DNA of 64,000 bases from Clostridiaceae bacterium JG1575 (GTDB taxonomy: Bacteria > Bacillota > Clostridia > Clostridiales > Clostridiaceae): NCBI GenBank assembly GCA_002838815.1, contig LQGW01000035.1:1-64000 (forward strand), read 5' to 3'. The notes beneath the pieces were generated by a model. That model saw only the letters and a list, made by a program, of their open reading frames with translations, was not told the origin of the DNA and ran no database searches. A program made the position numbers and the translations under genes. Shown here one piece after another: positions 52,798-63,434 of the stretch (position 1 is its first letter; every line of letters starts with the position of its first letter).

Positions 52798-53523
52798 TCA
52801 ACCTCTTTCTAAAAATGCCCGGACCTTTTGTGGCCCCCTCGGACCAAAGAGCTCCCGAGGGGATCCTTGGGCTTGGATGCGCCCCTTTTCCAGAAAGAAT
52901 ACCCGGTCCGAAAGCTGCTGGGCAAAGGCCATTTCATGCGTCACGATGAATAGGGTCATCCCTGAGGCTTTCAACTCAAGAAGAATCTTTTGCACCTGGG
53001 TCAGGCTCTGCGGATCCAAGGCGGAGGTCGGCTCATCCAAGAGAAGGACGTCCGGATTCATGGCCAGGGCCCGGGCCAGCGCCACCCGCTGCTTTTGACC
53101 CCCAGAGAGGGACCGAACGTCGGCGGCTTCAAAATCGCTGAGTCCCACTTGGGTCAGCAGCGCCCGAGAGCGCTCGGTGGCCGTTTCCCGGTCAAATCCC
53201 CGAACCCTTAGGGGCCCAAGGTTTAGGTTTTCCAGTACCGAAAGATGTTCAAAAAGATGGAAGCCTTGGAACACCGTGCCGACGCACTGGCGCCGCTCCC
53301 AAGGGGTTCGCGCCCCTTGGGGAAATTTCCGGGCCCGAAGAAGGATCTCGCCTTGCTCGGGAGACTCTAGGCCGTTGAGGCAACGAAGAAGCGTGGACTT
53401 GCCGCCTCCGGAAGGACCGATCAAGGAGATGGTCTCGCCAGGAGCCACCGTAAGATCAACTCCAGCCAAAACACAGCGCCCGGCGAAGGATTTTTGAACC
53501 CCCTTTAGCATTATTTGATGCAT
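52798..53523 (-). CDS. Amino-acid ABC transporter ATP-binding protein (probably lysine)
   Basis: Start at ATG 53523, six to seven bases after GGAGGA. About 241 residues with Walker A GPSGGGKST, Q-loop VFQGFHLF, signature LSGGQKQRV, Walker B VLLLDEPTSALD and IVTHE. GlnQ/HisP-type polar amino acid importer. Last gene of an SBP-permease-ATPase operon lying downstream of a lysine riboswitch, so lysine is the expected substrate. Confidence 0.93.
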   Translation of the reverse strand: MHQIMLKGVQKSFAGRCVLAGVDLTVAPGETISLIGPSGGGKSTLLRCLNGLESPEQGEILLRARKFPQGARTPWERRQCVGTVFQGFHLFEHLSVLENLNLGPLRVRGFDRETATERSRALLTQVGLSDFEAADVRSLSGGQKQRVALARALAMNPDVLLLDEPTSALDPQSLTQVQKILLELKASGMTLFIVTHEMAFAQQLSDRVFFLEKGRIQAQGSPRELFGPRGPQKVRAFLERG

Positions 53524-54248
53524 GCCCATTCCTCCTTAACCGACTCTCTGCCTGGACCATAGACGGGTTGTTTCAATTTTTCTTCCACCACATGGAGGCC
53601 TTGAGTTACGGCAAAAGTCAGCACAAAATAGATGCAGGACACCAAAAGCATGGACTCAGTAAAGCGATAGGTATTGCCCGCAACGCTCATCCCCTGGAAA
53701 AAAAGCTCCGTGACGCCGATGGCGTTAAGGACGGAGGTATCCTTGATGTTGATGACCCATTCATTGCCCAAAGCAGGGAAACTCTTGCGCAGCGCTTGCG
53801 GCAAAACCACCCAGCGAAACACCTGGCCTTCGCTCATGCCAAGACAAAGCGCCGCTTCTCGCTGCCCGGTGGATACGGACTGGATCCCGGATCGCAGGAT
53901 TTCAGCCATATAGGCGCTGGTATTGAGGGAGACGATGACTAGGCCTGCGGTGAACGGTTGCCAGTGTAGGCTCCGATACAGAAGATTGTACAAAAAAACG
54001 GCTTGGACCATCATGGGCGTCCCTCGGACAAAGGCCACATAGGCCCTGGCGATGACCTTCGCGGCTCGGCCCAGCGCCCTTTGGGCCAGGGGCTGGCCCA
54101 AAGACGGCGTAAAGGCGGAGAACGCCGCAAGGAAAACGCCCAAAAATAGACCCGCGAGGGTGCCCACGAAGGACAACAAAAGCGTGGTTTGAATCCCCTC
54201 GAGGAACAACCAGCCGTAGGCATGGATCCTTGCTAAAAGATTCGACAT
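53511..54248 (-). CDS. Amino-acid ABC transporter permease (probably lysine)
   Basis: A 245-residue HisM/GlnP-type permease with five helices. EAALCLGMSEGQVFRWVVLPQALR (in part) is the EAA loop that contacts the ATPase. VRGTPMMVQ is the conserved segment before the third helix. Start overlaps the SBP stop by one base; end overlaps the ATPase gene by a few bases. Confidence 0.92.
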   Translation of the reverse strand: MSNLLARIHAYGWLFLEGIQTTLLLSFVGTLAGLFLGVFLAAFSAFTPSLGQPLAQRALGRAAKVIARAYVAFVRGTPMMVQAVFLYNLLYRSLHWQPFTAGLVIVSLNTSAYMAEILRSGIQSVSTGQREAALCLGMSEGQVFRWVVLPQALRKSFPALGNEWVINIKDTSVLNAIGVTELFFQGMSVAGNTYRFTESMLLVSCIYFVLTFAVTQGLHVVEEKLKQPVYGPGRESVKEEWACIK

Positions 54249-55138
54249 CAGCGCATGCCCCCAATCTTGGCCTGCGTCATGGCCTCTTGCATCCAGGCGT
54301 CCCTTTGACTGCTTGAGAGCTCTCGCAGGATGGCATTGATGGTTTGAAGGAGCGGCTCTTTTCCCAATGGAAGCGCGATGGATACCGAAGTGGGGGTCTG
54401 AGGTCCCGCCTGAAATCCGCCGGGCCCCTCAAGAACCGTGGCGCTCAGATCGCTCCTGGCTTGAGCGAGCGCCACAGCCACCGGTCGCTCCACCACAAGA
54501 CCATCCGCCACACCGCTTTGCAGCGCATGGATTAAGAGCGGTACGGAGCCCAAGGGCGGCAGGTGCACTGCGCCAGGGATCTGGTCTATGGCCCGATCGT
54601 AACTGGTGGATTTTTGGCCCACAAAGCGGGCCCCCGCATATTCCGACAAACTCTTTTTGTGGTCAAATCGGCTTCCCTTTTGCACAAGGATTGCAAACCC
54701 TGCCTCATAATAGGCTTCACTGAAGGCGACCGAAGCGGCCCGCTCCTTGGTTTCACTCATTCCCGCAACGATCAGATCGATCCCTCCTGCCTGGAGGGCT
54801 GGTATCAGGCCTTCCCAAGCGATCTGCTTGATGATTAGAGGACGGTCCATCTTTTGGGCAATGAGCTGAGCAATGCGCACGTCATAGCCTGCGGCGCGGG
54901 CCGATCCTCCGTCAATGGGATGGGTGCCTTCCCCTTTTTGAACGGTGCGAAAATTATATGGGGCAAAGGCGCACTCCATGCCCACCACCAACGGGGGCCC
55001 TTGTGGCCCGTTTCCAAGGGCCGCTGGTCGGGGGCTCCTGCAGCCCGTGACGCAGGCGAAACAAAGGAACGTGAGCCCCCAAAAGAGGGCGGTGCGCCTT
55101 CTTTTAGGGGCGCGAGAACAAAACGGAACCAGGTTCAT
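54248..55138 (-). CDS. Amino-acid ABC transporter substrate-binding lipoprotein (probably lysine)
   Basis: Start at ATG 55138 (CCAAAGGAGTTTTCT upstream); longer readings pass through the riboswitch terminator. 296 residues. Signal peptide with lipobox CVTGC, then the bilobed SBP type-3 fold: VVGMECAFAPYNF, GYDVRIAQLIAQKMD, GLIPALQAGGIDLIVAGMS (in sections). Binds amino acid outside the cell and delivers it to the permease. Confidence 0.92.
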   Translation of the reverse strand: MNLVPFCSRAPKRRRTALFWGLTFLCFACVTGCRSPRPAALGNGPQGPPLVVGMECAFAPYNFRTVQKGEGTHPIDGGSARAAGYDVRIAQLIAQKMDRPLIIKQIAWEGLIPALQAGGIDLIVAGMSETKERAASVAFSEAYYEAGFAILVQKGSRFDHKKSLSEYAGARFVGQKSTSYDRAIDQIPGAVHLPPLGSVPLLIHALQSGVADGLVVERPVAVALAQARSDLSATVLEGPGGFQAGPQTPTSVSIALPLGKEPLLQTINAILRELSSSQRDAWMQEAMTQAKIGGMR

Positions 55139-55170
55139 AGAAAACTCCTTTGGCCGAACGCGGCGATGAA

Positions 55171-55209
55171 TTAAAAAACCAAAAGACCGTGCCAGACGAT
55201 CTTTTGGTT
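55171..55209 (-). terminator. Riboswitch expression-platform terminator
   Basis: Minus-strand stem AACCAAAAGATCGT / ACGGTCTTTTGGTT with loop CTGGC, followed by TTTTTTAAT. Lies between the lysine aptamer and the SBP start, so lysine binding would favour this terminator over an alternative fold (upstream GATGATGATG segment). Confidence 0.85.
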
Positions 55210-55218
55210 GCATCATCA

Positions 55219-55380
55219 TCTAGCGCCCTTTCCAAGGAAAGGAGTGCTTCAGGTCTTCCCTGAAGCCCCACAGAGGAGCAGCGCCCTGCTCTTCCATTCG
55301 GCGATGATTGCCTTTCCCTCCTTCTGAAACGCCTGCCGGCTAAAAGAAGATACTCATCTGCATCGCTACCTCTAAATTTG
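55219..55380 (-). ncRNA. Lysine riboswitch (L-box) aptamer
   Basis: On the minus strand, in order, the conserved L-box pieces are present: AGAGGTAGCG...GAGTATC (5' junction and first hairpin), GGGAAAGGCAATC then ATCGCCGAATGG (the GAAAGG and CGCCGAA core), a hairpin AGAGCAGGGCGCTGCTC, CTGTGGGGC, a hairpin CTTCAGGgaagaCCTGAAG, and GGGCGCTAG closing P1 against TTTAG. Matching order and spacing to known lysC leaders. It controls the downstream amino-acid transporter, pointing to lysine. Confidence 0.85.
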
Positions 55381-55396
55381 TCTTTGAGTTTTTTTT

Positions 55397-55424
55397 AGTC
55401 TATCAAAAATGAATCCTATGTCAA
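55397..55424 (-). promoter_or_regulatory. Promoter of the lysine transporter operon
   Basis: TTGACA (55419-55424), 16-base spacer, TAGACT (55397-55402) on the minus strand, about 20 bases before the riboswitch. Confidence 0.75.
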
Positions 55425-55693: not shown

Positions 55694-56083
55694 ATGATGA
55701 TCCGGATTGTTTTGCACGAAGCCAAAACAAAAAAAAGAAAAGAGCTGCAAAAGGGCGCGGCAGAATACGAGAAACGCCTCTCCCGCATCGCATCCCTTCG
55801 CCGCTCCAGTACACGACCGCCCAAGCATTGCTTCTTTTTTTCTCCCGATGGAGCCCCTTTGTCCAGCGAGGCCCTCTCCCAAAAAATACAGGGAGCGCTC
55901 CAGGGGACCAGTGAACTGCATTTTGCTTTAGGGAGCCCAAGGCTTTGGGACAATGCTTGCCCCGCGGCCCCCCATTTTTGCCTGACCAGCCTTGCCTTGC
56001 CCGAAGATCTCTCCGAGCTCCTACTGCTCGAGCAGATCTACCGGGCCTTTCAGATCGCTTCCGGCACCCCTTATCATAAATAA
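55694..56083 (+). CDS. RlmH-like protein keeping the catalytic tail but lacking the SAM motif
   Basis: 129 residues, shorter than RlmH (~155-160). N-terminus MMIRIVLHEAK...GAAEYEKRLSRIA matches RlmH. The C-terminus [21 protein letters not shown] (last 21 residues) is the invariant RlmH tail. Between them the SAM-binding loop, normally GGSxG, reads LGSPRL, and the FPHQ segment reads LPED, so SAM binding is probably lost. Strong ribosome site AAGGAGGCGGC. Tail-to-tail with a second RlmH at 56074-56544; 10-base overlap. Probably the catalytic-tail subunit of a heterodimer. Confidence 0.7.
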   Translation: MMIRIVLHEAKTKKRKELQKGAAEYEKRLSRIASLRRSSTRPPKHCFFFSPDGAPLSSEALSQKIQGALQGTSELHFALGSPRLWDNACPAAPHFCLTSLALPEDLSELLLLEQIYRAFQIASGTPYHK

Positions 56084-56544
56084 AGCAGGAGGGCCTGCAA
56101 AAGCGCCAGGCGAAAAAGCTGATGGGGAAACGTCAAATCGGACAGCGCCATACGCGCGTTGGCCCTTTTGCGCAGCGCTTCATCCAAGCCCAAAGAGCCA
56201 CCGACGATCCAAACCAGATCGTCAGCGCCGCTCTCTTGGGCTTTCTTCGTCAGAGTACGAACGCCCTCCGGTGTTGCGCTCTGGGCGCCCAAGTCCAAAA
56301 GCACCACAAAGGCCCTTGCGGGAATTTTGTCCAGCATCCGCCGGCCTTCCGCCGCCAAAACGGCTTTTTTGTGCGCTGGCGTTGCCTGCGCGGGGGTCGC
56401 CTCATCCTGCACCTCAAGGAGGTCCAGGGTCGCTCTGGAATCCAGCGCACGGATTTTTTTATGCAAAAGACCCAGGAGTTCTTCCTGGGTCTTTTGGGCA
56501 TAGGGTTCCTTTAAGGAGCCCACGCAGAGGATGCGCTGGTTCAT
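56074..56544 (-). CDS. rlmH: RlmH (23S rRNA pseudouridine-1915 N3-methyltransferase) lacking the C-terminal tail
   Basis: Start at ATG 56544, overlapping the SEC-C stop. About 156 residues. SPOUT trefoil-knot protein with the SAM loop [13 protein letters not shown] and [18 protein letters not shown] intact. It then ends ALLLYL instead of the usual EQxYRAFxIxxGxxYHK, losing the conserved tail that RlmH needs for catalysis. The downstream opposite-strand gene ends with precisely that tail. Sits after murA-yycJ-SEC-C, a normal Firmicutes setting, so it is the positional rlmH. Confidence 0.82.
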
Positions 56545-57050
56545 GAAGCAGCCTGGGCGCCATTGGCGCCACAACACTTTTTGTACTTTTTCCCGGACCC
56601 GCAGGGACAAGGTTCGTTGCGCCCTACCTTGTGCACCATTTTGGATTCCTTATATTCAATGCGAAGCTCTTTGCGCTTTTCCTCGGAAAAGATGGCGTCC
56701 CATTGCGGCAGACGATAAAGATACTCTGCGCCAGCATCCAGCATATTGATGTACAGCTTATGATAATCAATGTCTAGGGTCACTTGGTCATCTTCCTTGA
56801 CGCCTTCCACATCCAACGGCGTCTTCAAGGATTCATTGATGCCATCCAAGAATCCGACGACAAACGCCAACGGCAGCTCCTGCTCTTTAGCGAGCTGTGA
56901 GAGAATAAAACTGGGTTTTTCTTCGTGACGGCTGAGGATCAGACGATAAATCTTCTCTTCCGCCTTGCCATATTCCTTCCAAAAAGCTTTTTCCCCTTTG
57001 GTTTTAATGTATGAAACGACATAATCGGTCCACTGTGTGTATACGCTCAT
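56541..57050 (-). CDS. SEC-C motif protein
   Basis: 169 residues. Helical N-terminal domain, then the zinc-binding SEC-C motif [16 protein letters not shown] at about 146-161 (four cysteines). Domain found at SecA ends and on nucleic-acid-related proteins. Located between yycJ and rlmH. Role unknown. Confidence 0.85.
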
Positions 57051-62918: not shown

Positions 62919-62995
62919 TGGCGACCCAGAAGGGACTCGAACCCTCGACCTCCGGCGTGACAGGCCGGCACTCTAACCATCTGAGCCACTGGGCC
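62919..62995 (-). tRNA. tRNA-Asp (anticodon GTC), copy 1
   Basis: Minus-strand cloverleaf, acceptor GGCCCAG / CTGGGTC, anticodon stem-loop CCGGC-CTGTCAC-GCCGG, encoded CCA. GTC anticodon. Confidence 0.95.
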
Positions 62996-63001
62996 GTATA
63001 A

Positions 63002-63077
63002 TGGTGGGAACAACAGGGATCGAACCTGTGACCCTCTGCTTGTAAGGCAGATGCTCTCCCAGCTGAGCTATGCTCCC
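63002..63077 (-). tRNA. tRNA-Val (anticodon TAC), copy 1
   Basis: Minus-strand cloverleaf, acceptor GGGAGCA / TGTTCCC, anticodon loop CTTACAA in TCTGC...GCAGA, encoded CCA. T-loop sequence GTTCGATCC. Confidence 0.95.
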
Positions 63078-63099
63078 ATAAATATGAATCGCAGTATTT

Positions 63100-63174
63100 T
63101 GGTGACCCCTAGGAGAATCGAACTCCTGTTACCACCGTGAAAGGGTGGTGTCTTAACCGCTTGACCAAGGGGCC
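63100..63174 (-). tRNA. tRNA-Glu (anticodon TTC), copy 1
   Basis: Minus-strand cloverleaf, acceptor GGCCCCT / AGGGGTC, anticodon loop CTTTCAC in ACC...GGT, encoded CCA. TTC anticodon. Confidence 0.95.
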
Positions 63175-63179
63175 GTATA

Positions 63180-63256
63180 TGGCGACCCAGAAGGGACTCG
63201 AACCCTCGACCTCCGGCGTGACAGGCCGGCACTCTAACCATCTGAGCCACTGGGCC
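63180..63256 (-). tRNA. tRNA-Asp (anticodon GTC), copy 2
   Basis: Identical in sequence to copy 1 through the whole tRNA. Five bases from tRNA-Glu copy 1 and part of the second Glu-Val-Asp unit. Confidence 0.95.
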
Positions 63257-63261
63257 GTATA

Positions 63262-63337
63262 TGGTGGGAACAACAGGGCTCGAACCTGTGACCCTCTGCT
63301 TGTAAGGCAGATGCTCTCCCAGCTGAGCTATGCTCCC
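63262..63337 (-). tRNA. tRNA-Val (anticodon TAC), copy 2
   Basis: Same as copy 1 except a T-loop change, GTTCGAGCC here against GTTCGATCC in copy 1. Confidence 0.95.
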
Positions 63338-63359
63338 ATAATACGATTCATATTAAAAA

Positions 63360-63434
63360 TGGTGACCCCTAGGAGAATCGAACTCCTGTTACCACCGTGA
63401 AAGGGTGGTGTCTTAACCGCTTGACCAAGGGGCC
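63360..63434 (-). tRNA. tRNA-Glu (anticodon TTC), copy 2
   Basis: Identical in sequence to copy 1. First transcribed gene of the array. Confidence 0.95.

Follow-up and report, generated by a model that had tools for sequence, protein, structure and literature searches.

What does an ABC importer of generic amino-acid type carry, and can the RNA leader in front of its genes tell? The question is raised by a locus of Clostridiaceae bacterium JG1575 lying within the 64,000-nucleotide stretch of DNA that was analysed (contig LQGW01000035.1, positions 1 to 64,000; the window), for which the original prediction had proposed lysine riboswitch control of a complete importer operon. The aptamer, the switching platform, the operon, its conservation and the genes missing from the genome were all computed, and are described below together with what they suggest about ligand and substrate.

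Leader, operon and switching platform

The interval 52798-55424 runs from the stop codon of the ATPase gene to the −35 box of a promoter-like site. Its features, all on the minus strand, are the following.

52798..53529, minus strand: ABC importer ATPase (ABC_tran; Pfam, NCBIfam)
53511..54248, minus strand: ABC importer permease, polar amino acid type (BPD_transp_1; Pfam, NCBIfam)
54248..55138, minus strand: substrate-binding protein (SBP; SBP_bac_3; Pfam), likely a lipoprotein, with AAAGGAG at 55151-55145
55173..55209, minus strand: intrinsic terminator, stem-loop 55209-55177 and T run to 55173 (terminator scan, folding)
55191..55200, minus strand: ATCGTCTGGC, 3' strand of the antiterminator, overlapping the terminator 5' arm and loop (folding, shuffle test)
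55213..55382, minus strand: lysine riboswitch aptamer (L-box, RF00168; Rfam)
55215..55224, minus strand: switching strand GCTAGATGAT, the last J5/1 base and the P1 3' strand, which is also the 5' strand of the antiterminator (folding)
55397..55424, minus strand: promoter-like site TTGACA-16 nt-TAGACT with TG before the second hexamer (consensus match only, 10/12)

The claimed L-box is real. The Rfam covariance model, which had been named as the check, gave a strong match (82 bits, above the gathering score of 30; E 6.6e-20) that spans model positions 1-182 of 182 and is not cut off, and the quoted core GGGAAAGG / ATCGCCGAA was confirmed in the sequence. No second RF00168 match was returned by Rfam for the genome, the one at 55382-55213 (−) being the sole one found. 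A wholly new riboswitch class was dropped as a candidate because the Rfam match is full length. The junction residues around lysine (G11, G12, G77, G80, A81, G114 and G163 in Thermotoga maritima numbering) are present as judged by eye in the alignment, using the residue list in PMC3764141 and our own mapping of its numbers to columns. J1/2 carries a one-base insertion (GGUaGC), which is shared by all three importer L-boxes of the genus and is also seen in the lysA L-box of one of these genomes (G002; L035).

Pfam assignments of the three genes agree with the SBP-permease-ATPase order proposed for the operon. The longest SBP open reading frame begins at 55219, inside the leader and ahead of the terminator, and the ATG at 55138, which has AAAGGAG ahead of it and gives a protein of 296 aa, is therefore preferred as the likely start. 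A VTGC motif spotted by eye is what we take to be the lipobox. Read along the minus strand, the TTGACA-16-TAGACT site is followed after 14 nt by the aptamer, then by the 14-bp terminator with its T run, AAAGGAG and the start codon. Since neither the whole promoter scan (3 promoter-like sites against a shuffle mean of 1.8) nor the whole terminator scan (6 terminator-like sites against 5.8) was better than shuffles, the argument for these two elements rests on their placement and conservation.

The terminator expected before the operon was found at 55209-55173 (−), with a stem of 14 pairs at −17.1 kcal/mol. When the transcript was cut at the terminator loop it folded into a 10-bp antiterminator, GCUAGAUGAU (55224-55215) with AUCGUCUGGC (55200-55191), which alone amounts to −12.1 kcal/mol. 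After shuffling of the 15-nt upstream strand with the rest held fixed, 5 of 5000 shuffles folded as well as the antiterminator. Because its bases are shared with both P1 and the terminator, the antiterminator excludes both, and from this competition it follows that the switch should be OFF with lysine. This logic has been shown for the L-boxes of B. subtilis and E. coli, according to PMC11477304. All three genomes of the genus have GATCGTCTGGCACGGTC in common; the outer terminator pairs differ among them, and the alternative fold uses GCTAGA.

Minimum-energy folding does not recover the native aptamer, which folds otherwise when taken alone, and the P1 strands as a duplex reach only −2.9 kcal/mol; P1 must therefore be held by the ligand and by tertiary contacts. 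At low cellular lysine, GCUAGAUGAU and AUCGUCUGGC would pair as the antiterminator, the terminator would be blocked and the SBP, permease and ATPase genes would be transcribed. At high lysine, the bound aptamer would keep CUAGAUGAUG in P1, the antiterminator would be lost, and the terminator would form and end transcription before the SBP start codon.

A switch that hides the ribosome-binding site instead of terminating was also considered, as the minimum-energy fold of the full leader pairs the region of this site with the 5' end of the leader. This fold of a finished leader, however, ignores the order of transcription and itself contains the terminator. The terminator and T run end 34 bases short of the start codon and are accompanied by a competing antiterminator, so that hiding of the ribosome-binding site is hardly probable at all. 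We favour, with a probability of roughly 0.88, a lysine-responsive, transcription-terminating OFF switch, with a lysine-scavenging ABC importer of the polar amino acid type under its control; here the ligand, the direction of control and the transported substrate are what we infer.

Two further features of the window were recorded. The open reading frames 55694-56083 (+) and 56074-56610 (−) are convergent with overlapping 3' ends and both match RlmH (59 and 109 bits, both under the curated cut-off of 172); a second RlmH-like gene adjoining the first is unusual. Two tandem occurrences of a three-gene tRNA cluster, about 260 bases from each other, lie at 62922-63434 (−).

Conservation of the link and lysine supply

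In a first survey an L-box was present in 53 of 58 genomes, the source genome counted. From these, 118 listed L-boxes were extracted together with their downstream genes, using stricter filters by which weak matches were lost, and Pfam was run on one representative of each downstream cluster, the SBP cluster being represented by the window protein. The first downstream gene, meaning the first script-chosen open reading frame of at least 115 aa, was a Na+/H+ antiporter-like gene in 22 cases, aspartokinase-like in 21, a LysA-type decarboxylase in 15, an amino-acid permease in 14, the SBP of an importer in 14, kal-like (by eye) in 13, DapA-type (dihydrodipicolinate synthase) in 7, a semialdehyde dehydrogenase in 6, BKACE in 2, with four single cases besides. 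Individual assignments far from the L-box, across gaps of 699 and 872 bases, may be wrong. Where two L-boxes stand in tandem, which happens in two pairs, the gene behind them is counted twice: L038 (G011:C18:527184-527585) lies before an aspartokinase-like gene and L039 (G006:C12:48023-48451) before a LysA-type decarboxylase gene.

As a side observation, kal- or kce-type genes stand behind 15 of the 118 surveyed L-boxes (L036, L037, L040-L044, L046, L048, L049, L096, L135, L139, L140 and L033), one of them in G002, where kce equals BKACE by the Pfam representative and kal was named by eye, its representative being without a Pfam match. This suggests that lysine fermentation is under their control, for which an OFF switch would be unexpected.

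Twelve of the 13 best non-own matches of the SBP (E up to 3e-39) have an L-box upstream, and for the thirteenth the contig ends 195 bases from its start. No L-box was seen at ten further, more distant SBP loci searched with their flanks (L066-L075 of L066-L081). An order-wide SBP profile search of 225 genomes then returned 60 places at E below 1e-75, and 51 of these 60 close relatives have a same-strand L-box upstream. Thirteen were known with an L-box from the first survey; the other 47 divide into 38 with a same-strand L-box, four with an opposite-strand L-box (G064, G069, G080 and G086) and five with none within flanks of 0.8 to 1.5 kb (G183, G228, two places in G227, and G038 at a contig end). 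In four genomes (L202-L205) an SBP relative stands head to head with an opposite-strand L-box, and at L195, where the relative has no L-box, an RNase P RNA gene occupies the same strand about 460 bases upstream. Four more distant named relatives from other clades (L147-L150), with SBPs 34-36% identical (a Clostridiales MAG, Amazonia massiliensis, Caproiciproducens faecalis and a MAG labelled Fretibacterium), showed no L-box within about 3 kb upstream. Of the 14 importer L-boxes, all but that of G057 are followed by a terminator candidate (13 of 14, counted without shuffle control). Together with the covariance score and the terminator with its competing antiterminator, the conservation in 51 of 60 supports the proposed lysine riboswitch control of the importer.

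The fold of the SBP does not name the substrate. Against NCBIfam its best match was the lysine/arginine/ornithine SBP family (TIGR01096), at 74.7 bits and thus far below the curated cut-off of 256.35. The AlphaFold model (pLDDT 86.8) has as its best structural neighbour 4h5f (Z 27.4, rmsd 3.0, 231 residues), followed by 4i62 (Z 27.2), 4ymx (Z 26.4) and 3k4u (Z 26.2, rmsd 2.5, 225 residues), a protein from Wolinella whose structure was solved with lysine. Arginine and glutamine binders come next at Z 24 to 25, and ornithine binders are also among the neighbours; as the arginine and glutamine binders score so close behind, the fold does not decide the substrate. E55 of the SBP aligns on Asp11 of LAO, provided the alignment is gap-free at its start, and Asp11 is among the LAO residues mutated in the listed structure entries. 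Across the L-box-linked SBPs this position is E in 13 of 14 and D in one; an acidic residue here would fit a cationic side chain and is no proof of one. The SBP resembles 4h5f, 4ymx, lysine-bound 3k4u and LAO in fold (Z about 24 to 27) and in the acidic residue at the likely place of LAO Asp11, but shares only 17 to 30% identity with them.

At E 0.001, no match to lysA (TIGR01048), dapA (TIGR00674) or DAP epimerase (PF01678) was obtained in the genome, which is 97.12% complete; the same searches were positive in 13, 14 and 9 of 14 control genomes, respectively. The organism therefore seems to be a predicted lysine auxotroph, its single L-box serving import and the importer acting as a scavenger. 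As the tested genes of the DAP pathway are absent, import is probably its main lysine supply. Two PF00324 (AA_permease) genes elsewhere in the genome could be alternative lysine carriers. In the genus, G001 is also without lysA and is just 87% complete, and G002 has lysA, which follows one of that genome's L-boxes at a distance of about 150 bases. With lysine fermentation in mind as a purpose of import, BKACE (PF05853) was searched for; no match was found in the genome, and only one of 14 controls was positive.

The floor of the lysine pocket

In the T. maritima aptamer the pocket floor is the quartet G11-G163-G141-A162, and G141 is over 95% conserved according to PMC3764141. With that numbering, mapped to alignment columns by ourselves and anchored on the neighbours U140, G163 and C166, the two strands of the floor read as follows.

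55224..55233, minus strand: P5 3' strand and J5/1, GGAAAGGGCG; A162 is G (55227) and G163 is kept (55226) (alignment)
55236..55245, minus strand: J4/5 and P5 5' strand, ACTCCTTTCC; G141 is C at 55242 (alignment)

The standard G141-A162 floor, which is a common trait of lysine riboswitches and not the definition of RF00168, is thus absent from this aptamer and replaced by C141-G162, a Watson-Crick swap. The leader shares with RF00168 lysine riboswitches the full-length match, the conserved core and the P1/antiterminator/terminator platform; it differs from them in having a C-G instead of a G-A floor pair and in the one-base insertion in J1/2.

The source genome, G001 and G002, which are the three genomes of the genus, all read ACUC...GGCG in their importer L-box and hence have C141-G162; in the two remaining L-boxes of G002, G141 and A162 are retained. 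The other 48 importer L-boxes examined in the order have G141-U162 without exception (10 seen in the first survey, and all 38 of the second), and that of G057, which lies outside the order, has G-A. On other genes A162 is found in 94 of 104 L-boxes. A base other than A at 162 occurs in 13 of 14 importer L-boxes against 10 of 104 others (Fisher p 2e-10, uncorrected for descent); the floor-pair counts are not independent, because the importer L-boxes may share one ancestor. Of 118 L-boxes, 114 retain G141, a count for which the automatic reading had given 14 of 118 as non-G, ten of these being re-read by eye as CTG or TTG before P5. The four with C141 are the three of the genus and L145 (G009:C1:3470817-3470987), which stands before a sodium:alanine symporter-family gene (PF01235) and whose register is unsure because its J5/1 has one extra base. 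Queries of the open-licence literature, worded without naming the 141-162 pair, returned no mention of a floor variant in importer L-boxes.

A variant aptamer that still has lysine as its ligand, but in which C141-G162 shifts the affinity and thereby makes the lysine level that stops import differ from that of other L-boxes, is possible and on balance doubtful. It would account for the C141-G162 pair that the importer L-boxes carry throughout the genus (three genomes), where the other L-boxes of G002 have G141 and A162, and for the uniform G141-U162 of the order's importers, set against the rarity of a non-A162 on other genes. Common descent of the importer L-boxes weighs against it, as do the G-A floor of the G057 importer L-box and the other junction residues of PMC3764141, which look kept (G9, A10, G11, G12, G77, C78, C79, G80, A81, G114, U140, G163 and C166). 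Equally tentative is the wider suggestion that the importer L-boxes of this clostridial order form a distinct subtype with a rebuilt floor, G141-U162 in general and the compensated C141-G162 in the genus, and with a lysine threshold or selectivity different from that of the L-boxes on biosynthesis genes.

The same changes might also mean that the aptamer has changed its ligand and senses ornithine, arginine or a diaminopimelate, the importer carrying the same compound. The strong conservation of the altered floor position, as given in PMC3764141, the J1/2 insertion common to the three importer L-boxes of the genus, and the arginine and ornithine binders among the structural neighbours of the SBP would be in line with this. 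Yet the L-boxes of related importers in other genera score 94 to 116 bits, and the absence of the tested lysine synthesis genes fits a demand for lysine, so that a change of ligand appears highly unlikely and lysine is retained as the ligand of the preferred reading.

Precedent and meaning

Lysine riboswitches upstream of an ABC transporter, lysX-lysY, are described as scattered in Firmicutes, Actinobacteria and Fusobacteria in PMC5584792, which credits lysX-lysY to its reference 30, disputes the three species of that work and reports many others. The locus resembles lysX-lysY, as presented there, in that a generic ABC transporter for amino acids is preceded by a riboswitch, and its layout is of that type, with an amino-acid SBP-permease-ATPase operon immediately behind an L-box of the same strand. 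As L-boxes have already been published for ABC importers, the arrangement is known in kind; it is ordinary in this respect and well supported, and the change of the floor is its unusual part.

From the riboswitch, a likely substrate can be proposed for a transporter left unnamed by the sequence families, and this transporter is linked to a predicted lysine auxotrophy. The G-A, G-U and C-G floor pairs form a natural series within one riboswitch class, so that any influence of the floor on affinity would be open to direct measurement.
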